64,000 bases of DNA, taken from Undaria pinnatifida. Its lineage: Eukaryota; Sar; Phaeophyceae; Laminariales; Alariaceae. How positions within the stretch are numbered: the stretch's first letter is position 1; every line of letters begins with the position of its first letter. The position numbers and the translations under genes were made by a program. Positions 13,047-48,500 of the stretch are shown one piece after another. Under the pieces are notes generated by a model. The model ran no database searches. It was not told the origin of the DNA and was given only the letters and a program-made list of their open reading frames with translations. Location of the stretch: assembly GCA_012845835.1 (NCBI GenBank), contig JABAKD010000014.1:3769710-3833709 (forward strand), read 5' to 3'.

Positions 13047-13314
13047 TGTTAAGATACGGCCTCGAAAGGCCTGTAGGTATCCGAATTTGAGATCATTTGA
13101 ATGGGTTTCGTATGATAAGGTTGGCGGTTTATATTCGGGGAAGTTAGGAATTAGATCGGAGGCACGCGCCTCCGATCTCAGAAGCTATCCCGGGCTCTGG
13201 TGGAAACGAATAAAGCTACATCTCTACGAAGGAACGAAAGTGAGTACTCCGAGGACCTACCCAATTGGCAGACCTGCAGGGGGCACTCTGTGTCCCCCAC
13301 CTATTAATTTAACA
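13047..13314 (+). repeat. 5' LTR
   Basis: 268 bp, TGTTAAGATACGG to ATTAATTTAACA; ends are TGTTAA/TTAACA inverted repeats. Contains a 10-bp inverted pair around ATCGGAGGCACGCGCCTCC and a possible polyadenylation motif AATAAA in CGAATAAAGC. Identical by eye to 21091-21358. Confidence 0.95.
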
Positions 13315-13315
13315 A

Positions 13316-13332
13316 GTGGCGTCGTCGGCAGG
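13316..13332 (+). other. Primer-binding site of the LTR element
   Basis: TGGCGTCGTCGGCAGGA begins 2 nt after the 5' LTR. TGG is the complement of a tRNA CCA end. The same 17 bases occur at the matching place in the TRIM at 54113-54506. Which tRNA primes is not determined. Confidence 0.7.
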
Positions 13333-13442
13333 ACAGAAAAAAAGCGAAACATTTTTTTTCTCTCCCTGTTTCTTCGACGGGAGCGCGGTCATGCGCCCTG
13401 TCGGGGCCCCGGCCCGCAGATCATGGGCGCGGCCAGGGTCGA

Positions 13443-13799
13443 GTGCCGTCCCAGTCGCTTTCGTGGCAGACGGGATCGAGCCATCATTCAACTGTCATGC
13501 CCATCGATGATTCATCTGACCCTTGGCTTGACCACACATCGAACTGCTGGCCACTAGAAGAGCATCATTATGCAGAAGGTTTCGCCGTTAAGGCCTCGTT
13601 TAAGACAGTCGACCCTCCCCTTTGGAGCGGCCTCCTTTCACCTCGCGCTGATGCCCTCCGAGAAAACCGGGGGCTTTGCCTCAACTGCCACGAAGACAAC
13701 CATTCCTTCAAGCTTTGTAGGCATCCTTATATTACTGCGAGTGGCTGCTTGAACCCTGAACTAGGCCAACTTGGCGACGATGACGCACACCGACGTTGA
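13443..13799 (+). CDS. Gag-like fragment with CCHC zinc knuckle
   Basis: An open frame of 118 residues whose C-terminal half has CLNCHEDNHSFKLC, a perfect Cys-x2-Cys-x4-His-x4-Cys knuckle as in retroelement nucleocapsids, which bind the element RNA. The upstream matrix/capsid part is very short and not recognisable, and the frame stops at 13799. Either the Gag is minimal or the ORF is decayed. The start shown is simply the first ATG in the frame. Confidence 0.6.
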   Translation: MPSQSLSWQTGSSHHSTVMPIDDSSDPWLDHTSNCWPLEEHHYAEGFAVKASFKTVDPPLWSGLLSPRADALRENRGLCLNCHEDNHSFKLCRHPYITASGCLNPELGQLGDDDAHRR

Positions 13800-15160
13800 C
13801 AAACACGCATGGTCTGCTACCGCCGAGACGACAAATCCTCTCGCCCAAACAACCACAAGAAAAATCGTCGCCATCTTTCAGGATCAGGGCCAGGTAAACT
13901 GTTACAACGATACCACATACACGTCGGATCACCATGGTATCCTGCGCTCGCCCGCCTCTTCTGCCCCCGCTCCCGCTTCTCGAATGCGCTTTGGAGCAGC
14001 CCACAACCCGGGCGAAAATAAATGTGCGCGCCAACCTGGCACATTCCGTAACGGCAATTGACAGCTCGACGGCGGTACGGCACCGTCGACAACACTGTCG
14101 GGGGGTACCTATTTTGGTTTCAGGAAATGCTCGTGTTCTGTTGCTAGCCTGTCCAGAAACGCAGCACAGATTGCCTCTGTCAAGAGCCTACGGGCTCCTA
14201 CGCCGTCTGCGGACGATTCTCACGGCGTAGTACCGGCGGCGGAAACTAGCGCTTCAAGCGTGGTTTCCTCCAGCCAGGTAATTTTTTTTCTTTTCTTTCT
14301 TTTTCGACGGCGAGAACGCGCGCTTTCAGCGACGTTCCCCTCGGTCATGGTCTGAGTTCGGCAACGGGAACCGCGCTTCCAGCGCCGTTTCCCTCAGCCG
14401 CGGCATAAACTCAGCAATGGGGGTACGCGCTCCAAACGCCGCCCCCATCAACCATGGCACGGGAGCCTGCGCTTTGCGCGCTCCCCCTCTAGGTACGCGC
14501 CGCGCAACAATATAGCTGCAGCGACGGCGCGTCGCCTTTTTTACGCGTATGTGTGCATCCCCCCCTCTCCCTGACCAGGCGGTGGCGGTCGGTTTGAGGT
14601 GTGGGACGGTCGACCCTCGAAACACTTTTTCTGACCACGAGGTGGCGGTCGATTTGAGGTGTGGGAAGGCCAACACTAAAACACCGAGATCTTTTGCGAG
14701 GCTCGATCCAGTGTTTGCTCGCGATAAGAGCGGGCGCTCTGTCCTTTTTTCCATCAAGGAGGAGTCGACAAGATTAGCTACCTCGTCTCCCTTCTCCAAG
14801 AGACATAACGGAAGAGAGCCTCCTCGGGTAAAAATATTATTGCCTTGCCCGAGCCCCGCTCCAGAAGACGCCCACAGGGTTTACGGACCCTGCTTCGTCT
14901 TTTAACACGCTAACCCACGTGTTTCAGGCTACGTCTGCCCCAGTGGCACAGGAAGAAGATCCGACACTGCGCGACGGGCCAGTGGTGACTCCACGGCCTC
15001 CAGCCTGATCAGCTGGACGCTATTCCCGTAAATTTACGGAAGAATCGCGCCTCTCGTCAAGCAGAAACAGCTCAGAGCCCCTGCCCCTTTGGGCGCAGTT
15101 GGAGCAGTTTTCTTGCGATTATACGCCAAAAAGCGAAGAGGCCACGACGCGAGAAACCGT
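13800..15160 (+). other. Internal region of LTR element without a recognised domain
   Basis: Several short overlapping frames rich in Arg/Pro/Ser. Two adjacent 60-bp segments near 14575 and 14635 share AGGTGGCGGTCGRTTTGAGG. The stretch 14842-14925 reappears in inverted orientation at 21908-21986, so it belongs to a wider element family. Confidence 0.5.
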
Positions 15161-15910
15161 GGGTTCGGACTCGCGTCGTGCTCCCGAGGCCTGGTGTTCC
15201 TGAGGGGGACACTACAGGCCCAAAGAGCCGAGGACTGGTGTTCCCAGACGGGGACATTACAGACCCAAATGCCCAAAGAGGCTACCGACGGGTTGGCACC
15301 GTCGGTGTTGGACTCTTTTTCGGGTGTAATGAGGGCGGCTTCTTACGAGTTTCCGCCAGCGAGTGAGGAGGACCCGAGGCGAGAAACCCCAGGTTCGGAC
15401 TCGCATGTTGCTCCCGAGGCCTGGTGCCCCCGCAAGGGGACATTACAGGCCAAAGAGCCGAGGACTGGTGTTCCCAGACGGGGACATTGCAGACCCAAAT
15501 GCCGAACGAGGCTACCGACGGGTTGGCACCGTCGGTGTTGGACTCGTTTTCGGGTGCAATGAGGGCGGCTTCTTACGAGTTTCCGCCAGCGAGTGAGGAG
15601 GACCCGAGGCGAGAAACCCCAGGTTCGGACTCGCATGTTGCTCCTGAGGCCTGGTGCTCCCGCAAGGGGACATTACACGCCCAAGTAGCCGAGGACTGGT
15701 GTTCCCAAAAGGGGACATTGCAGACCCACAAATGCCGAACGAGGCTACCGACGGGTTGGCACCGTCGGTTTTTGCCATTTTTCGGGCGCAGTTAGAGCGG
15801 ATTCTCGCGCTTTTCCGCCAACGAGCGAAGAAAGACCCGAGGCGAGATACCACGGGTTCGGATTCGCGTCGTGCTCCCGAGGCCTGGTGTTCCTGGACGG
15901 GGACATTGCA
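15160..15910 (+). repeat. 230-bp tandem repeat inside the LTR element
   Basis: Block starts marked by CCGAGGCCTGGTG (or CTGAGGCCTGGTG) at about 15184, 15414, 15644 and 15876, so period about 230 bp with just over three copies. Each holds GGCTACCGACGGGTTGGCAC and GACTGGTGTTCCCA. Copies two and three are nearly identical, pointing to recent expansion. Confidence 0.85.
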
Positions 15911-15963
15911 GGCCCAAATTTCAACACGGATTTTGACCCTTCTCTCGAATACTCCACAGCCAA

Positions 15964-16460
15964 GTGGTGTTATTCTGGCAGCTCCCATCCTATTTTCCAC
16001 CCTGGTCCCCTTCGTCGTTTGCCGTGGACGACGTATCATATTCTTGCGCGGAGCAGGACATGATGGCCGAAAAGACCAAGTTTTTGCAAGACCATCGAGC
16101 AGTGGGGCTCATTATGTCGTCGCCTCGTCCAAGCACACGCAAACGCATCGGTCGAGGCGTGCACAACTTTGACTCCGCTGTTGGGGACAGGGAGAAGCAA
16201 AACGCCGTGTCACCTGGCACCTATGCCAAATTCACGCAGAATTCAGCCACAAAAAAAAAAAAAAAAAAAAAAAAAAAGTCACCTTTTGAGCTCTGACAAC
16301 AAGCTTCTGGCTGAATCCTGCCCTCTGAACCCAGTGTGGGGCGTTGGTCTCCGGGCTGATGGTCCCAGGGCCAACAGCCCATGCCAGGGGAGAGGAAAAC
16401 TTGCTCGGTGAGGCCCTTTCTGCCGTTCGCGCAGCTATTTGCGACAATGAGACCGGGTCG
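15964..16460 (+). pseudogene. NADAR-like domain within the LTR element, frameshifted
   Basis: Frame one (15964 to about 16250) reads LFWQLPSYF, then YSCAEQDMMAEK, IGRGVHNFDSAV and GTYAKFTQNSA. After a poly-A run (16250-16277) a second frame gives HLLSSDNKLLAES and PVWGVGLRAD (to about 16395), and a third frame gives ENLLGEALSAVRAAI. This order matches NADAR (YbiA/RibX-like) domains: the AEQYMMA signature, GR-V-F, KF-QN, LL-T-LAEASP, WG-G and W-G-N-LG. NADAR proteins are known as N-glycosidases on riboflavin-pathway intermediates and as enzymes that remove ADP-ribose from guanine in nucleic acid. Here Tyr is Asp in AEQxMMA and the Trp before DREKQ is Gly, and two frameshifts are present, so this copy is probably inactive. 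The shift at the poly-A run could in principle be a slippery site or an assembly error. Confidence 0.75.
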
Positions 16461-16615
16461 GCGCACCCGGCCTCCCCTAGTCGGTTCCGCACCTGCACTG
16501 CGAGTGCAAGAACCAAGAAATCTCGTCCGCGCCGCAACCAGACCGTTCACAGCGGCCAGCGCTCGCAAAGCTTCCCCTTCGGCGTTTCCGACCTATTTCT
16601 CGGGCGCGTTGGCCA

Positions 16616-17734
16616 ATGAAAAGCCGTGAAGTTGTGGAGATAGCTTTTAGCGTCGGCCCTGACCTTGCGATGTCAGAACACTGCCCCTGTTTCATCGAGG
16701 GTACTGTGACGCTGGACGACGTTTTGTTCACTATGAAAATCGCGTTTATCAGTCGAGCAACGCTCGACTTGGAGAGGCACTGGACTCCTAAAGATTTGGG
16801 GACCGGCAGCATTGCTTGGGTTCCCAAACACCTCCGAGGATACTGAGGGGAACAAAGTTCCGCATATCCTCCGGCCACAATACATAAGAGAGCATTGGCA
16901 AAGTGGGGACCCTCAATGCACGAGTCCAGCGGTAGCTTGAGTTCGTCACGGCGTTCGATTGCACACTCGAGTACCGCAAAGGCAGCGCCAAGGGCATCGC
17001 CGATTTTTCCGGCCCGTTTTCCAGAGCCCGCTACGGAGTACGACCGCAGTGGCTTGGAAAAATTCAACCTCGTGGGGTTGACAAGCCTCAACCCCGTTGG
17101 AGATAGCGGTATCTACCTCCTACGGACCCGCGGGCTGCGCGCTCCCCCCTCGCCGATCCCAGGAGTCGGTTCGGGTGGACTCGCGCCCCTCGCCAAAAGC
17201 ACTGTCTTGGGTGGGCTCGTGCCCCACACGGAAAGCACTGCTTTGGGTGGACTCGAACCCCTCGCCGAAAGCACTGTCTTGGGTGGGCTCGTGCCCCGCA
17301 CTGAACATGCTGCCTTGGGTGGGCTCCCTCTCACCTCTACCGCGTTTCACGATTTTCGCAAACACGAGCCACGTATAAGGATTGACGGCCTTTCTGTTTC
17401 CCCGGGGAGATTCGTCGCTCGTGTTTCTGCCTCCGTCGCCACTACCGAAGGCTGTACCGGCCGCGGGTCGATTTCACCTGCCGCCGACACTGTTTTCGCT
17501 TCGGTCTTTGCCATACCCATCGAGGGCGGCACGGGCTCCGCAGAAGCCCTGGCTGCAGCGACGCCCATCGCACAGCCGACTTATCTATCCCGGAGTTCTT
17601 TACAGGAGACGGCCCCCGCCGCGACCACCGGTTCGACTGTGTCCGTCTCCGCCATGCTTGGCACTCCAGCCCCTCCGTCGTCGACGACGCGCCAACGAAC
17701 AGCGATAACAACGGGTAATGCACTCCCGCTGTAG
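16616..17734 (+). other. Spacer ORFs between NADAR and integrase; 36-bp repeats
   Basis: A 76-residue frame (16619-16846) and a 279-residue frame (16895-17734) have no recognised domain. 17185-17335 holds four units of about 36 bp that read STVLGGLVP / STALGGLEP. Ala/Ser/Thr/Pro-rich flanks look like linker sequence. No RT motif. Confidence 0.5.
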
Positions 17735-17737
17735 ATT

Positions 17738-20228
17738 ATGGATTCGGGCCCGGCGGGGCCCCTCGGCCATCTTGCGGACGAAGTACAACCCCGTCGCGAG
17801 TTCCACGGCCGCAGCCGACCCCGTCGCCGCCGCGACCCCTGCTCTTGTCGACTCGCCGGTCCGCACGGTGCCACTGCCGTCCGACCGCGACCTCGCAGAG
17901 CCTATATAGGAACTCCTCTCTTACGGCTCACGCCTTCTCCTGGTGGCACGCCGACCGCATATACAAGGGCGGACGCCCTTCGCAACGCTGCTGAATTGCG
18001 TTTCGCTGATTCCGTCGCGTGTTATTCGCATTACGATTGGAAGCGAGAGCAGCACGCTGAGCCGACGTGCCACGCCATGATGCGTTACGTTTGTATCGGC
18101 CGGCAATCGGTCCTGCCGCCCGACTTTTTGGCGTGCTACCTCTTGCACAAGCGTCCCTCCCTCTCAGACATCCAGGAGCTGGCGGGTAAGGGTCGACTAC
18201 ATACAACCGACGACGTCATCGTCCTACTCGTCCGTAACCCGACACTACCGCCAACAAGCTCCGACAAACCGAACTCTGTGGGGCGAGCTGCTTGCTTTGC
18301 TAAACGACGAGCCAGTTCGCATCTACGTTCCCCTGCTCATGCGCCCTTGGATCATGCAAGCTTGCCACTCGACGGCCTCCTGCCACCTTGGCACCACGCG
18401 CACGTTGCGCATGCTGGAGCGTTTTTATTGGTGGATTGGCATGAGTGTGTGTACCCGGTGGTGGCTTCGCCACTGCTTGAAGTGCCAAGCGCGGATAACC
18501 CCACGGCTGACTGTCCGCTGGCCCATCATCACAATGCCTCTGCCGGAAGGTCCAGGTATCGCCGTCAGTGTTGACTACTTCGGCCCCCTTCCGGTCACAC
18601 CACGAGGCAACACCTACATCCTGCTGTTCACCGATCGCTTCAGTCGTCGGGCCGACATGTTCCCCGTCACTGCCGCTGAGTTCACCGCGGAAGGTACAGC
18701 CAATATCCTGGTGAACCAATACATACCCTTGTGGGGGTGCCCGCGCACCATACTCTCGGACAACGGACTGCAGTTCTGCTCCAAGCTTTCACAAGCTGTA
18801 TGTCAGTTGTTAGGTGTACACAAGCATGATACAAGCTCCTACCATCCCAACTGTAACGGGGGCGTTGAGCGGGTAAATCAAACTATGGCACAAATTCTGG
18901 CTATGGTCGTCAACGAGCGACAAGACGACTGGGACTTGCATCTGCCCCACGTCGAATTCGCTTACAACAACTCTGTCAGCGCGGCGACGGGTTTGGCACC
19001 CAACGAGGTCCACATGGGCAGACTCCCACGGCTCCCCCTGACGATTTTCGACCGCAAACGTGTCGTGGGACACCAGAGTCTGGCCCGTGACCTCCTGGCC
19101 TATTGCGATTTGGCCACCGACCGGCAAAAACGCGCGAACGACATTGTCCGCGCACACCACGCCCTCACCGTTTCCCGTGTTGACCGCAGAAACTCCGCCC
19201 TCGCCGACGCGCTGCGTCCAGCACCTAATTTCACTGTGGATGGTTGGGCATGGGTATACAATTCTGCCTCTACCATCCGCCAGGGTGTGAAGGCGAATAC
19301 CGACGCCAAGGTACTCAAGGCCAAACTCGCGCTTAACTGGACGGGCCCATACAAGGTCCTGGCCGTCGGTCCCTGCTCCGCCGCCGAGACCCCGGACGGC
19401 TCGCCGCTCGGGAGCAACCTCCTTTATTTGGATCTCCCTTCCGACCTGCCTGGTTCGGACGCTCGTCAGCGTGTGGCAATCGAGCGCTGCAAACCCTGTG
19501 CCAACCCCCACGACAGCGGGGACATGCCCAAATACCTACCGGCGGGGCTGACACAGTATGTGCTCAACAAATTTTCCAAGACGTCCCCGCCGTACCACGT
19601 CACTCAAGACGACGTTTCGACTCCCCTCCAACGGCTGGAGGTGGAGCAGATCACTGGTCATCAGTCGGTACGGGGGCGAGGTGGCATCATCACGGTGCTA
19701 TACAAGACGCATTGGGCGGGACTCTCCGAACCGTCCTGGGAGCGGGAAATGGACCTCCACCTCTCCCGCTCGCACATCTTGCGTTATTGGGCCGGAACCC
19801 CGGACCAGCACCGCCAAACCAACCGCCTTTACCGCCGAATGCGGATCGGGGCGGCACAGCGTGAGCTCTCCCGCAACAACGGGGAACGTTTCCTAGCGCC
19901 GGGCTACGCCTGTGTTTCCCGCACCGATTGGCTCCGTCGCTACCACGACACCATACTTCCTAAGGGAGCCCACTTTTGGTACAAGGGAGACGATGGTTTA
20001 TGGTGTCTAGGAAAAATCAGCGCGAGCACTACCGAGGACAAGGTATACCTGGTCCGCTTTCTGGACGACCCGGGACCGATTAAACTCCCTCTTCCTCCGG
20101 CGCGCTACACGACTTCAACGGGAGCCGTACGAGGCTCTTGGTGCTTGCAAGTTCACATCGCCAGTGCGTTTCCTCGGGGAATCCAACGTAACGTAGACGA
20201 ATCTCGAGGCGCGGCCGTGGCCAGTTGA
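17738..20228 (+). CDS. Integrase with chromodomain (pol C-terminal part)
   Basis: The frame from 17738 (DWKREQHAEP..., IQELAGKGRLHTTDDV) shifts near 18298, where one extra T breaks it into the frame open from 18297 to 20228. The main part has the integrase zinc finger (His-x5-His in CHSTASCH; CLKC), then the DDE core: Asp in SVDYFGPLP, Asp in SDNGLQF, Glu in NGGVERVN with exactly 35 residues between the last two. After that comes a GPY-like NWTGPYKVLAVGP, and a chromodomain-like EVEQITGH...YKTHWAGL..SWERE...ILRYW. The last about 130 residues include a tudor-like stretch FWYKGDDGLWCLGKIS. This enzyme would insert the cDNA, with the chromodomain steering it to chromatin. Only the +1 slip near 18298 mars the frame. 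Confidence 0.9.
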
Positions 20229-21090
20229 CTTCCAAGCCACCACCGCTTCTCGATAGTTCTTCATTTTTTTGAGGTATGAGTTTTGCGTCTTTGTCTTTGG
20301 GTCGTTCGTAGTGTCCTGAGGGTCTTCATCGAGTTTTGGGGCGGTTCTTTCCATTTTTTTTTCTGTCCTGCCGAACCCCCTGCTCAATGCCGGGTCAGGG
20401 TTCGGGAAAAACGCCGCTATCTGAGGCGCGGGGTTGCCGTCTTTTTGTCATAGTTCAAATTCGCCCTGCCGACGCCCTCCTCAGCCCAGAGCCGGGGGGC
20501 GACCAGTGTACGGGTCTGTGTGTCTTCTTTTATGTTTTGTGTGTTGTATTTGTTCTGCTTTTTTTTTTTTTTTTTTGTCGTCTAAATGCTTCCTCCCCTA
20601 GCGGGGCAGTATGTGTTGACAACTTCCATCCCGGGTATTCGTAGTTTCCTCGTCTAACCCCCCGCCTTGCCGATGGCCCGCGGGAGGTTTTTCGCATGAC
20701 TTCTCCCTTGTGTTAGCGCCTGCGTTCCCCTCCATATCGACGAGGGCTCGCCTCGCCATAGTACTTTTTCTGTGGTTGGTTTACCGCAGAGCCTTTCCTG
20801 CCCCCCCCGCCACACCGGCGGCATGCGGCAGGTTCTAGAGCCTTTTCTGCCCCCCCCGCCACCCCGGCGGCATGCGGCAGGTTTTTGATGGGTGACTATT
20901 GCCTTGCTGTAGGGCATGCTTTTCTTTCTACTGCTTTTCTTCGCGTGTTCCTGGCTCCATAGCCAGACGGTTAGAGGTGTGGGAGTGGGGTTTGAGGAGC
21001 CGCATCTTCGACTCATGGTCTAGTTCGTAGAACCGGAGTTTCCCCGAATCTCCCATATTTCTGCATATGCGACTCATCAGGGTGGGCTAG
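20229..21090 (+). other. 3' non-coding part of the LTR element
   Basis: No ORF of note. A 50-bp block with CCTGCCCCCCCCGCCAC and GGCGGCATGCGGCAGG is repeated at about 20796 and 20850. Just before the 3' LTR, CAGGGTGGGCTAG is only weakly purine-rich, so the polypurine tract is not clear. Confidence 0.5.
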
Positions 21091-21358
21091 TGTTAAGATA
21101 CGGCCTCGAAAGGCCTGTAGGTATCCGAATTTGAGATCATTTGAATGGGTTTCGTATGATAAGGTTGGCGGTTTATATTCGGGGAAGTTAGGAATTAGAT
21201 CGGAGGCACGCGCCTCCGATCTCAGAAGCTATCCCGGGCTCTGGTGGAAACGAATAAAGCTACATCTCTACGAAGGAACGAAAGTGAGTACTCCGAGGAC
21301 CTACCCAATTGGCAGACCTGCAGGGGGCACTCTGTGTCCCCCACCTATTAATTTAACA
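21091..21358 (+). repeat. 3' LTR
   Basis: 268 bp, identical by eye to 13047-13314, followed by TCAA, the duplicated target. Confidence 0.95.
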
Positions 21359-21659: not shown

Positions 21660-22030
21660 TCCAGGTATCAATATTCCAATCACAAGTACAGTTGGGCGCC
21701 AGACCCGTCGCCGCGCTGACGGAGTTGTTGTAAGCGAATTCTACGTGGGGCAGATGCAAGCCCCAATCGTCTTGTCGCTCGTCGACGAAAGGGTTTCTAG
21801 ACCTCCGACGGTATCGGAACCCACAACGAGGAGGCGAGGAGAGGCGGAGGCGGAACCGGAAGCAGACACGGAGGCGGACACTGAACCGGATACACCGTAG
21901 CCTGGTGCACATGGGTTAGCGAGCTTAAAGACGGAGCAGGGCCCGTAGACCCTGTGGGCGTCTTCGAGAGCGGGGCTCGGGCAAGTGGAAATAGTCCATA
22001 ATCTACAGCGGGGGTGCATTGCCATAATCT
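21660..22030 (-). pseudogene. Inverted relic of a related LTR element with integrase fragment
   Basis: On the minus strand 21797-21689 reads VDERQDDWGLHLPHVEFAYN, matching the integrase at about 18910-19000 of the intact element but cut off after SAATGLAPN. 21986-21908 matches 14842-14925 of the element. These two segments are not adjacent in the intact copy, so the relic is rearranged or from a deleted variant. 22010-22100 has short tandem duplications (CTACAGCGGGGGTGC, CAGGTATCAATATTCCA). Confidence 0.7.
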
Positions 22031-42500: not shown

Positions 42501-45500
42501 CTAGTGCCACAAGCCACGGCCAGAACTAAACGCTCAACGGCGTTCATAGACCGAGGAGCAACCATTGCGTCATTTCTCCATTTTCCTTTATGCACATGCC
42601 TTCAAATTCATGTGAACCCCTTTTGTGTCGTTTCCGTGCTCTAGATCTGACGCCTTGTTAGGCTCCCAGAGCAATGCCATAACATTGCGCGAACGTATGT
42701 CTTCCAAGGCGTGTTTTGGGTGAGAAATTGAGCTGCTCCCCATATCAGGGGAGCTCAGAAAACTCTTAGAACCTGCTGCATGCACCCCTACCTATCGTGG
42801 GATGGCTCAGTACAATGTGTATCTGCGCACGCCAAACGAAGCAAAGCCCGCCCGCACCTTCAGGTTTCCGTCCGCAAGCAGCTCGGACATGCGGTCGACG
42901 AGTCGAGCCGACTTTCCTGCCGCGTACAGCTCGTCGCCGTGCTCGCCCAGAAGCGCGGTCGCCTATGTTAAAAGCGAAAGAAAATAAAAACAGCGTAGAA
43001 TATGGTAAGCTAAATGTAATGGGGTGCCCTCCGTAGGATAGTTTATAGCTGCGACGTGAAACCATGTCATGGTTGAGGTGAAACCACGTGACATTAGATG
43101 TCACACTCACGTCATGCCTATCATAGATGGGCGATAATGTAGGTGACGATGATGGGACAAGCAGGACGCCCCACATTTCACTACCTTGCACTACCTGCTC
43201 TACCCTGCGTTTCCCTGCGTTACCCCGCACTACCGTGCCTAGCCCTGTTATGTCTGTCTTCTAGTATCCTCTTTAGGGAAATAATGCATACAGGCTTTTG
43301 AGTCTATCCAACGAGCCATGAGGAGAGACCAATAAAGACACTGGAACCAATGAAGAGCACCCTTCCTAAGACCGACCAACCACGCACCCCCCACTCGGAG
43401 TACCACCACATAAAGCTGTCGTCGTTAGCAGGAATCTGCGCAGAAGAAATAAGGGCAAAACGGTAAACGATAGCTAAACGCTGTCGCGCCGTTAGCACGA
43501 ACCCGCGTGCGCAGTAAGAAGATGCTCTTCTTGTAAAAGTCCCTTCGACGTAAGTGTGTGTTGGTGTATGTACGGCGGACGCTCCAGGCAGATCGACAAA
43601 AAAGATCGTTCGTTTCTTTCGGTTGTTTGTGCCGTCAAAAAAAAAACCTCGCATTTTGTTCGCAAAAACTCCAACAGGCTTCCTTCTCGTTGTGCTCGCT
43701 TTTTTACTGGCACAAATATTAATATTAATACGTACTTCGTAATTATCCGGTGGGGGTGCGATCACAACTTTTTTTTTTGTTTTCAGAGGTTCGCCCCTTA
43801 AGAACCTGAAAAAAAAAAACTTACCCCCTCCTAAAAACAGTTTCTGTTCTTTGTTTATTTATTAACGCAAAAACTGAAAGCGCAACCAACCCGACGAAAA
43901 AACAAAACAAAACATAACAGATACGATGAAAAACAAGAATGGCATCACTTGCGACGATTTTGGGCCATATTTGGGGACAAAACTACTTGGAAATAGTATG
44001 GGGCATAAAACAAATGGGCTTGGCCCCGACTAAGAATTTCTTAAAACCCTTCCACTACCGCAAAAAATATTCCACACCAAAGTAATTTGTCCCTCTGAAA
44101 TGTGGGTGCCCTTCTCTGTAGAGGTTTAATCGGTGTCGAGCCCTTTCACGCACTATCTCCAGTCGATACAACAGCACTGAAAACAGAGTGAAGAACAAAT
44201 CCTACTTAACGCCTTTACAACTGGAAACCCTTTTCGGGAACAGACTGGCTTGAAATTAGGATCGGGAGGGATTTTGGGGTTCTAAAGGGTTTGAAGCAAG
44301 AATTTGAGCCTTGATCTAGAATAAGAACGTAATAAGTGTATTTAAATATTAGGGTAGGAAAAACATTTTTTTCTCTCTTCTTTTTTTTTTTCATCCTCCA
44401 GCGGATGGGGAAAAATAAAACTTATTAAGCTCACCACAGTCCCACGTATTTTCATGCACGTCGTGTGTCGATTTAACTCGATTGAATTCGCAATCCAGCG
44501 CTAGCTGGCTTGTCCTTTCGGTTCCCGCAATAGCGATAGCGCGAGCTAACAACATCGAATAAAAACTTGAGTTTGGTCGAAAAATAAGAACGTAAGGGTT
44601 TTAACTTGAGCCAGGTCCAAAACAAGACCATAAGAGTTTTTGAAGTGGTAGGGGAGGATAAAAACTCATCAAATAAGAACTTGCGCTTGGTCTAAATAAA
44701 ATAAGAACATTATGGATTTTTCTTGAGCAATTTTGCGCACTATTGGTAGCTGTATTCCGTTCTCACTTCGTCGAGTCCTTTCACGCGCTCCCTCCAGTCG
44801 CTCGAATCCAGGTTAGCAAACACGCCCGGCAACAGCTCCGCCTCCCGACAAAAAAACGCCTTCGACGATCTTTTTCTTGCTCCGGCGCCCTCTCGGGGAG
44901 GCGAAGTTGATCTTCGTCCGGTGGACCCTCGCCCTGGCACCTGCTTCCAAAAAGCGTGACGTACAGCAGTACAGGGCACCACGCAAGAAACACGGCGATA
45001 AGATTGGCAGGCTGATATTTACTGGAGAATGAGAAACCCGGGCGCCATTATACTGAAGCTAGCGTGAACGCACCATTTCCCGAACAAGAAACCTAGCCTG
45101 GGTCAGTATAACATGGTAACAAGGAATTCAGGCTGATATTTTCCGGAGAACAAGAAATCCGGTTGCCTATAGATACACGACGAGAATCATGAAAAAAAAA
45201 GGCCTTTTTTTTTTCCCCCGACGATTTTGGGCTAAGTAAGGAGTGCTGTCATTCAGAAACCAATTTCGCCAAAAAAAGGTATACCTCTACCGTAGCACGC
45301 TTCGAGCGCGCCAGAAAAACGTTGGTGCACGTCTAACTTAGCATGCCTCTCATCCCACGGTTTAGATAGGGCCTCGAAAGGCCTGTAATTGTCCGAATTT
45401 GAGATCATTTGGATGGGTTTCGTATGATAAGGTTGGCATTTTATATTCGGGAAAGTTAGGAAATAGATCGGTGGCACGTGCCTCCGATCTCGGAAGCTAT

Positions 45501-48500
45501 CCGGGGCTCTGGTGGAATCGAATAAAGCTACGTCTCTACGAAGGCAAAGAAAGTGAGTACTCTCCGAGGACCTGCTCAATTGGCAATCCTGCAGGGGGCA
45601 TTCTGTGGCCCCACCTATAACCTTACACCACGGTGGGGGTTTCTATTTTTCGGGCCAGGCGTTTTCGACCGGTGGCGGGTTGAGCTCCTCGATTGTGGAA
45701 CTATGGGTGTGTATGCTAATTTTCACGAGAATGTTTTATTTGAGGACTGGCGCATAGAAGCGTTGGTCGGGTTGCAGAAGCGTGCTACGACAGAGGTATA
45801 CCTTTTTTTTGGCGAAAATGGTTTCTGAATGCCGGCACTCCTTTTAACCGGGAAAAAAAAAAACTATTTTTGTTGCATGATTCATGTCGTGTATCTATGG
45901 GGGCAAATGTTTTTTTTTTTTTTCGTTCATCCGCGGTATGATAGCAGTTTGATTTTCTCTCCAAATTATTTTTCGGGGAGAGGTCTTGACCTCACAAATT
46001 GAGGGGTAGTGTTGGAAAAAAAAGTGGTGCACCTCTATCGTAGAAGGGGTCTACCCCCTCTATTGTAGAAGAGGTCTACCCCCTCTATCGTAGAAGGGGT
46101 CTACCCCCTCTATCGTAGAAGGGGTCTACCCCCTCTATCGTAGAAGGGGTCTACCCCCTCTATCGCAGAAGGGGTCTACCCCCTGTATCTTAGAAGGGGT
46201 CTACCCTCTCTATCGTAGAAGGGGTCTACCCCCTCTATCGTAGAAGGGGTCTGTGCACGAACGAATGCCTTCCAAGCCATGTTTGGGGTGATGATATTGA
46301 GCCAGCTCCTCATGTTAGGATCACAGAAAATTCTTAGAATCTTCTGCTGCACCCCCTAGCGTGTGGGATGACGAATCCTTGCCGCGCGTGAGTTCCTAGC
46401 GGCAGCCATGTTGACAATGAACAGAGGGCAAGCAAGTGCCTGATTCACGGTTTTTCGGCTGATTCAGTGATACGGTTTAGTCACCAGCAAGCTGTCTTAT
46501 GTGTATCTCTTGTGTTGCGTGCGTGCCTCTAACAATATACGTGCTCGTCCAGCAGAATTAAATCGACGCACGACACATAGATAGGGAGAGTTCTGGCGAG
46601 CTTAAGGGTCGTTTTTTCCCGTCCGCCTACGGTCTAAAATATAAACGGAAAATGAAAACGAAAAACGAAAAACGTGATTCGCGTGTACATACCTCTCCAG
46701 CTCCAGCCGCTCCCGTTCGCCGTCGGTCATCGCTGACGGAACCGGCTACATCGCTGCTTTCGTACGGGCTGCGTGATTTTCGGGCGATATCATGTCCGCC
46801 TTCCTGGGTGTGGCGTAATCCTGTCCCCCTCCTAGGCTTTTCTGCGTTCTTGATCAACTGTTTTTTTTCGTCGGTAAGGTTGTGCAAGGGAGACCTTTGT
46901 CGCGCTAGCATACAAAGTGGGATCACCTATTTAGGGCCTATTTGTGTTTTTCAGCAGGCCAGGACGCCTCGCGCTTGAGTCGTTAAGGGGATAAATTTCG
47001 AATTTACATAGTATTTTCAGCCCTTGCGCGTTTGTTCTGTTCGGAATTCGCGATGTGTGCTTCGCCAAGGAATCGTATTTTTTTCGCTGGGCCATCCAAA
47101 CATGTTTAGGTTCGTTTCTGGGCGAGGTTCATAGCCATTCGCGCGAGTGGCCTAAACTCAGTAGAATAGTGGCCCCTCTATAATGCCGGTGCGGGAGCTA
47201 TGAGCACAGTAGTGGTCCTTCTATAGTGCCAGTTAGAGTTGTTCTACGGTACCCCCCCCAACGTTTCTTTAACGAAATCGCCGGTTTTGAAACCAACTCC
47301 CGGCCGTATCTCGTGCAATACGGTGCCCCTTGCCACCACCCCGAGGTCGTCGTTCGATCGTCCTTTGCAAACAAAAAAATATACGAGCATTTTGTTTTTC
47401 ATACCATCATCCTTCCTCGTGTCTCGAGAGCAGCCATGAAACGCTATTTTAAGAACATCGCTGGTTTTGAGGTGGGCTATTGAAGAATCAGTTGGTACGG
47501 GAGCTATGAGGACAATAGTAGTCCCTCTAGTCTATATTACCGGTACGGGAGCTATGAGCACGGTAGTGGTAGCTCTATATTGCCGGTATGTGCACTATAG
47601 AGGGAAACACCGGCACAATAACGGAAGCCGGCACTACTGCTCCGCATACTGCCTCCAATGGCTGTTCCCGTCCGCTCTAAGCGAGTTTCGGAGGCAGCCA
47701 TCACTACCCAACCAGCGCTATAGCGGGCAATCGGCGCTACCCAGCAGGCACTACAGTGGTAAACCGGTACTACCAAACCAGCACTATAGCGGGAAACCGG
47801 CACTACTCAACCGGCACTGTCCAACCGGCGCTATAGAGGGATGCAGGGCGCCATTCCCCACCGTAGCCTTAGTCCGCCGCGAAAAAAAAGATGGTACCCG
47901 GCCTTGACGCCTCCCTACTCACACGAGACCGTCACCTCTCAGCAGCTGCTATGTATGCTGCTCACCTCTTCGCCCCGCAGCCTCGGTCTCAACTGAGGCT
48001 GCGTGCGAGACAACAATGCCGGTCCTTCCCGTAACCCCTCGCCATGGCCTGGTCGTCGTTCCTCTTGCCATCCACCCGTACGGCTTCGGGAGCTGCTGCC
48101 GCCGCTGGTCCCGCCGCCGCCGCTCACGTCTCCGCCACCCCGAACGCCAGCAGCCGGGGAATAATAGTTTCCAGGCAAGGAATCCCGGCTATCGGAAAAC
48201 CGCGTACTATCCGTGCCGTTAGAAAGGCGCCGGTTATCTTTAATGCGGCTTCCAGTCGAGGGATCCCGGTTATCGCATAACCGCGAACCGGCACCGTCGA
48301 CAATGCGCCGGATACCTCTGGTATCGAGTATACGCGTACCGATATCGGGCCGGCTATCTCGGTTATCGGATAACCGAGCACCGACACCGTTAGCACGGCT
48401 GTCTCTGCTGTCGAATAACCGCGTACCGACGTCGGGTCGGTTATCTCTGCTATCGGATAACCGCGTATTGTTGTCTTTGCTGTCGGATATCCGCGTACCA

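Follow-up and report, generated by a model that had tools for sequence, protein, structure and literature searches.

An association of NADAR domains with Gypsy retrotransposons was published in 2025 for Ectocarpus (Genome Biology, PMC12477816), where a NADAR-bearing Gypsy lineage of Ectocarpus sp. 7 is described, including Gypsy-12_Ec32. The same paper reports a NADAR-like domain in open reading frame 1 (ORF1) of a Tx1 long interspersed nuclear element (LINE) of the oyster Crassostrea gigas. NADAR enzymes strip ADP-ribose from guanine, with E43, K50 and E/D125 named as important residues (PMC11543638, PMC11125620), and the YbiA subfamily is defined by a glutamate at the E125 position (PMC11543638). 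Soluble ADP-ribose derivatives are posited as targets of viral, above all phage, NADARs in PMC9503650, which favours macromolecular targets for the eukaryotic RNA viruses that carry NADAR in a polyprotein. The present analysis concerns a 64,000-nucleotide stretch of the genome of the kelp Undaria pinnatifida, hereafter the window (assembly GCA_012845835.1, contig JABAKD010000014.1, positions 3,769,710 to 3,833,709, forward strand), in which an insertion bounded by long terminal repeats (LTRs) at window positions 13047-21358 carries a broken NADAR domain. This element is very probably a recent insertion of a non-autonomous subfamily, devoid of reverse transcriptase (RT), within an U. pinnatifida Ty3/Gypsy lineage that bears a YbiA-type NADAR in its Pol protein; the NADAR of the window copy is a fossil, chosen open-frame copies elsewhere in the genome show signs of constraint, and the subfamily would have been mobilised in trans, most likely by the open-frame family termed here family A.

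The two LTRs of the window element are identical over 268 of 268 bases, start with TG and end with CA, and the tetranucleotide TCAA abuts the element on both flanks as a target-site duplication, giving the combination of paired LTRs and duplicated target that marks an LTR retrotransposon. The insertion is judged young because its two LTRs are identical. Its features, in window coordinates, are the following.

13047 to 13314, forward strand: 5' LTR, TG...CA, 268 bp, sharing 98.1% identity with the 3' LTR of a family A copy that has open frames.
13317 to 13334, forward strand: putative primer-binding site (TGG..., 2 nt past the LTR), predicted from the sequence.
13677 to 13718, forward strand: zinc knuckle of Gag, CX2CX4HX4C; the window copy lacks the leader and the remaining upstream Gag.
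15110 to 15917, forward strand: tandem repeats with units of ~230 bp, in the stretch corresponding to the pre-NADAR part of Pol.
15964 to 16242, forward strand: NADAR piece 1 (frame +1), keeping E43, K50, K75 and R79, with W89 replaced by G.
16243 to 16272, forward strand: A-run segment within the dead NADAR, 12-38 nt long across 30 loci.
16277 to 16396, forward strand: NADAR piece 2 (frame +2), keeping E125 and W133, with D130 replaced by N.
About 16398 to 16440, forward strand: NADAR piece 3 (frame 0), the NLLGEAL block, without a Pfam match of its own.
16739 to 17134, forward strand: broken RNase H remnant in two frames, found by tblastn with Ectocarpus Pol proteins.
18081 to 20228, forward strand: integrase ORF of 715 aa with H2C2 and rve domains, ~96% identical to family A from ~18150 to the 3' LTR.
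19638 to 19769, forward strand: chromodomain-like stretch on the C-terminal side of the integrase (PF00385, E 0.035, 14.5 bits, below the cut-off of 25.1).
21091 to 21358, forward strand: 3' LTR, identical in sequence to the 5' LTR; TCAA flanks the element at either end.

Tblastn with five Pol proteins detected no reverse transcriptase in the window copy, and the two long frames ahead of the integrase (16847-17734 and 17735-18574) gave no Pfam match, hence no RT by Pfam. Being without a detectable RT, the window copy does not display the protease-RT-RNase H-integrase order of an autonomous Ty3/Gypsy Pol. By its anatomy and by the RT identity of its open-frame Undaria relatives to Ectocarpus Pol the element appears to belong with the Ectocarpus NADAR-Gypsy lineage, the comparison with Gypsy-12_Ec32 being made by description and the RT identities being those to the Ectocarpus Pol protein P0241. 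It differs from that lineage in its host, in its lack of RT, in its dead NADAR and in a chromodomain stretch that stays below the Pfam cut-off. The oyster Tx1 element is likewise a retrotransposon with a NADAR-like domain, but it is a non-LTR element that carries the domain in another protein, reported to be divergent (PMC12477816) and known here by description.

The preliminary description of the window, made from its letters alone, had placed NADAR signature blocks in order over three successive frames between the Gag knuckle and the integrase, and this arrangement was recovered, the order of the blocks being that of the NADAR family. The Pfam family PF08719 matches piece 1 (15937-16272) with E 2.7e-16 and 60.7 bits at a cut-off of 35.1, and piece 2 (16274-16405) with E 0.0051 and 17.5 bits, below the cut-off; piece 3 on its own gave no PF08719 match. 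Against solved structures piece 1 alone reached just E 0.08, with 8bau. Residues were mapped by aligning P0250, a NADAR-protease protein that matches 8bau at E 2.1e-14, to this solved NADAR, using the numbering given for the P. nicotianae NADAR in PMC11543638. As the residues named there land on the 8bau chain at an offset of two, we infer that 8bau is the P. nicotianae NADAR. Across its pieces the window NADAR retains E43, K50, K75, R79, E125 and W133, the glutamate at 125 in piece 2 being the one that defines the YbiA subfamily. R93 is K in the window copy, which is not counted as a loss because K also occupies this position in 24 of 40 open-frame copies. The window NADAR is a fossil, frameshifted and with W89 and D130 lost; an uninterrupted domain with its conserved ligand-contact residues is absent from this copy and largely present in the 40 chosen open-frame copies. 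Like the NADAR/YbiA enzymes and the DarT1-NADAR antitoxins (PMC11543638, PMC11125620), the domain matches PF08719 and carries E125, its relative P0250 matches 8bau, and the open-frame copies have largely the same ligand-contact residues. The described enzymes are stand-alone proteins for which hydrolysis of guanosine-ADP-ribose was tested, whereas the domain considered here is part of Pol, is known from its sequence and is dead in the window copy.

The decay of the window NADAR recurs in other copies in the genome. Used as a genome query, the window NADAR stretch gave 808 candidates, of which 40 were scored, and every scored place matched at 94-100% identity; 30 of the 40 came as loci and form the examined set (29 and the window, L060). 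The codon of W89 is GGG in all 30 loci. Piece 1 is without indel relative to the window in 30/30, and piece 2 is without indel in 28/30, the other two showing gains and losses of equal total length right where the piece begins. When window positions 14460-17960 were aligned with the 30 loci, 22 gave one long piece, 6 gave two overlapping pieces and 2 (L072 and L089) gave less, and the 28 loci thus covered leave no room for an RT. As these features are common to the examined loci, W89 had been lost, the frame broken behind piece 2 and the RT-less structure established before the subfamily spread. The phase of the A-run segment tells against a wholly uniform decay, being that of the window in 17 of the 30 loci and different in 13; because it is not uniform, the break between pieces 1 and 2 alone is not callable as fixed. 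The A-run segment (window 16243-16272) could mark copy lineages. The statement of the preliminary description that this copy is frameshifted and has lost two conserved residues is thus borne out as W89G and D130N, although the decay is shared by the RT-less subfamily; that it is private to the window copy is ruled out by GGG at W89 in 30/30 loci and by the shared RT-less structure.

The subfamily is a mosaic in which family A-like ends enclose an older, diverged interior. From ~18150 to its 3' end the window element is 95.9% identical to a family A copy, while those parts of its interior (13355-18149) that can be matched to family A reach just 69-83% identity, with gaps. In binned comparisons identity steps near 18150 from 78-85% in the 350 bases before to 94-99% in the first 250 after; the boundary between the retrieved stretches L049 and L050 coincides with ~18150, and the binned identity shows that the step is real. 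A segment of 651 bases over this junction matches 40/40 scored places, window included, at 97% identity or more. Ten siblings were sampled among the 39 scored places besides the window, and all ten have the integrase half and the 3' LTR, 95-97% identical to family A. Compared with family A, their best leader piece is 93-97% identical; for the N-terminal stretch of Gag the values are 67-69% in nine siblings and, over less sequence, 76% in C22. In addition, the ten siblings retain sequence upstream of 13344, comprising the leader and most of Gag, that is missing from the window copy. In two of the ten, C27 and C28, identity to the window in the part before 18150 is just 78-79%, which indicates that the interior or the junction varies in the subfamily. 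No 5' LTR lies within the retrieved upstream stretches of the ten siblings, and dating by their own LTRs is thus not possible; their 5' LTR is probably out of reach of these stretches because the leader is long. The shared ends, the lack of RT and the recent insertion together argue for mobilisation in trans, most likely by family A.

Intact-looking relatives of the domain, for which the preliminary description had recommended a search, were found in the same genome. A PF08719 search gave 1454 first-look candidates, of which 150 were scored; all 150 matches exceed the cut-off and 22 of them lie in open frames of at least 2000 aa. In one family A copy (C18) an in-frame TGA separates a knuckle-bearing Gag frame (1019 aa) from a Pol frame (2473 aa) that encodes, in this order, NADAR, a DTGS protease motif, RT, RNase H and an H2C2/rve integrase. 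The same Pol order is seen in one family B copy (C22), the LTRs of which are 99.8% identical across 494 bases. The order was read in these two copies, the protease being called by the DTGS motif only, and in both of them NADAR lies N-terminal to RT within Pol, as in the brown-algal NADAR-Gypsy elements. With an LTR and integrase half like those of family A and no RT of its own, the window element is a derivative of this lineage. The intact-looking relatives, in Undaria as in Ectocarpus, agree with the earlier proposal of an ancestor carrying an intact NADAR, with the difference that the domain is part of Pol and not a separate gene. The frameshifts of the window copy would also be expected if a fragment of a host NADAR gene had fallen by chance into this one copy, but the 40/40 scored places (of 808 candidates) matching at 94-100%, the 150/150 scored genome matches above the cut-off and the fusion of NADAR, in a single frame, to the RT, RNase H and integrase domains of the two Undaria copies, and to RT and integrase in Ectocarpus proteins, rule out such an insertion for all practical purposes.

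The state of the active site was read in 40 NADAR regions, taken from the 150 scored, with nearly full coverage and no stop (23 of family A, 16 of family B and L047). R79, W89, D130 and W133 are kept in all 40 copies, K50 and E125 in 38 each, and E43 in 36. The preliminary description had called for dN/dS (the ratio of nonsynonymous to synonymous change) among such relatives; pooled values drop with synonymous divergence (pS), through 0.70, 0.46, 0.39 and 0.24 over bins of pS from 0.005 to 0.35, and the pairwise value between family A and L047 is 0.19. In family B, shared changes comprise 8 nonsynonymous (N) and 11 synonymous (S) against 64 N and 21 S among singletons (p 0.011). The window pieces give 0.26 (piece 1 vs family A), 0.34 (piece 1 vs L047) and 0.38 (piece 2 vs family A), so that the line leading to the dead NADAR had probably been under constraint over the greater part of its history; piece 1 of the broken subfamily holds 17 N and 10 S changes in all, too few for a conclusion. 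Several observations weigh against constraint or against an intact active site. E43 is K in 4/40 and E125 is changed in 2/40 of the open-frame copies (L009-L048), the widest pS bin (0.35-0.74) has a dN/dS of 0.56, 303 of the 780 pairs are saturated and fall outside the bins, and below pS 0.005 the ratio takes a meaningless value of 20.4 (0.5 synonymous changes). Family A displays no shift between N and S, with 6 N and 5 S shared against 45 N and 25 S among singletons (p 0.53), and the choice of copies by open frame and high score in the hidden Markov model search biases the selection measures towards constraint. Similarly, the structure model of P0250 (alignment A1, 8 rows) is poor, with a mean predicted local distance difference test score (pLDDT) of 39.8, and no enzyme assay of a retrotransposon NADAR was found in the literature searched. 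Taken over these chosen copies, most of the active site is preserved and signs of purifying selection are present.

What the domain would do in the element can be proposed with less assurance. In the mechanism considered here, the Pol of the lineage carries NADAR in its N-terminal region, ahead of the aspartic protease motif and the RT, RNase H and integrase domains, and NADAR would remove ADP-ribose from nucleic acid or protein of the element, or from a host-made derivative, during replication. The subfamily was copied after W89 and a common frame had gone, and family A with its open frames would be the most likely agent of this in trans; the sequences show that the window copy has its LTRs and integrase half in common with that family, and the siblings the leader too. 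RT-less copies may lose NADAR if open-frame partners supply Pol. That the domain acts as an N-glycosidase on ADP-ribose of the element's own nucleic acids or proteins is put forward tentatively, with rather less than even confidence. The preliminary description had suggested that NADAR might shield the element's RNA or cDNA against ADP-ribosylation by the host, or imitate a repair step of the host, and both suggestions are conjectural. The changes at E43 and E125 would also suit a non-catalytic Pol module, a binding or structural reader of ADP-ribose or nucleic acid, which is improbable given the retention of E43 in 36 and E125 in 38 of the 40 copies and the invariance of R79, W89, D130 and W133. 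Alternatively, NADAR could act on a soluble metabolite (an ADP-ribose derivative, a NAD-linked signal or a riboflavin intermediate) and so counter host signalling. The largely conserved active site and the soluble derivatives posited for phage NADARs in PMC9503650 are consistent with such a role; the macromolecular targets preferred there for RNA virus polyproteins, and the fusion to Pol, which would place NADAR among replication proteins, make it a somewhat doubtful one. The NADAR of animal RNA viruses (PMC9503650) resembles the present domain in sitting in a replication polyprotein and differs in belonging to RNA-dependent RNA polymerase systems, not retroelements.

To assess the breadth of the association, the Ectocarpus Pol protein P0101 supplied its NADAR part as a query, for which 12 of 288 candidates passed E 0.001. 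Eight of these are from Ectocarpus sp. CCAP 1310/34, all with RT among their listed domains, and the other four are P0246, P0247, P0248 and P0250; a DTGS motif follows NADAR in P0246, P0248 and P0250, and P0247 aligns with the post-NADAR piece of family A. Piece 1 has 166 relatives; of the 120 that were listed, 69 carry G at position 89, 35 carry W and the remaining 16 have another residue or no alignment there. The nearest bacterial gene found, in a planctomycete metagenome-assembled genome, is 62% identical in its best segment, and a genome-contig scan with the NADAR alignment A2 confirmed two bacterial loci. Viral-contig scans with P0241 and with alignment A2 confirmed no relative; the same kind of scan with the planctomycete NADAR gave 8 loci.

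Over RT-RNase H, families A and B (L010, L023) are 78% identical, and each is 71-72% identical to P0241. The NADAR domains of A and B are 49% identical, that of family A being nearer to Ectocarpus (60%), a pattern that would follow from repeated acquisition of NADAR or from its exchange in family B. In a 28-row NADAR tree the retrotransposon rows do not form one clade, a result still compatible with a single origin. Constraining all retrotransposon rows to one clade gave a p-value of the approximately unbiased test (p-AU) of 0.081, and constraining the Undaria and Ectocarpus rows gave 0.021. Without the viral rows L092 and L097, p-AU rose to 0.28 for all retrotransposon rows and was 0.23 for the Undaria rows (the Undaria and Ectocarpus clade was not re-run), and the protease region beside NADAR is also ~50% identical between A and B, which a faster clock would explain together with the NADAR divergence. 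More than one acquisition is thus suggested by one test and is not claimed here; multiple acquisition or a swap is held to be unlikely. A broader scenario, which we regard as speculative and place well short of an even chance, would have a brown-algal Gypsy element recruit a bacterial-type NADAR as a counter-defence against host ADP-ribosylation of element RNA or cDNA. The domain would have been selected since before the split of kelp and Ectocarpus and replaced at least once, in family B, with RT-less derivatives losing it only through trans use of the proteins of open-frame partners.

The findings extend the NADAR-Gypsy association of Ectocarpus to a kelp, at high copy number and with decay in RT-less derivatives, and the contrast between intact and decayed copies makes the question of why a retrotransposon carries an ADP-ribose glycosidase a testable one. 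Should a retrotransposon indeed encode an enzyme that erases ADP-ribosylation from nucleic acid, this would be a sign that brown algae use ADP-ribosylation as a defence. PMC12477816 was the sole on-subject paper recognised for NADAR with retrotransposons or brown algae, matches being judged by title and the opening of the abstract. As far as this search shows, three things appear to be new, namely the occurrence and abundance of the association in a kelp, the tests of residues and of selection, and the RT-less mosaic subfamily whose NADAR is dead, although the supplements of PMC12477816 may list other brown algae.

The family A copy C18 spans at least ~15.6 kb, with a leader of ~3.9 kb before the Gag frame (L055 1-3777) that holds a 442-aa frame (L055 1141-2469, minus strand) and internal repeats. 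A single TGA divides Gag and Pol in one frame in L002-L008, ~1224 nt before NADAR, and in L054 at 955-957; it stands at the same place in 7 of 8 family A loci, the eighth (L001) having other upstream sequence, and is also found in the one family B copy read. This arrangement suggests stop readthrough or re-initiation. RNA structure after the stop was rejected as a readthrough signal, two 100-nt stretches giving z-scores of -0.73 and -0.66 against shuffles.

Elsewhere in the window, in which ARAGORN found no transfer RNA, a further LTR of the same family lies at 45360-45618, with an identity of ~90%; nothing else of the element matched in its vicinity, and it is likely a solo LTR. Directly beside the element, 21691-21788 and 21896-21985 are antisense fragments of the same lineage, from the integrase and from a stretch like 14844-14933. 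Finally, the predicted Undaria protein P0110 joins a cyclic-nucleotide-binding kinase to an integrase tail of the window element's family. Its match to the integrase query covers 30% of that query at 97% identity, and the fusion probably reflects an error of the gene model or the exonisation of a copy.
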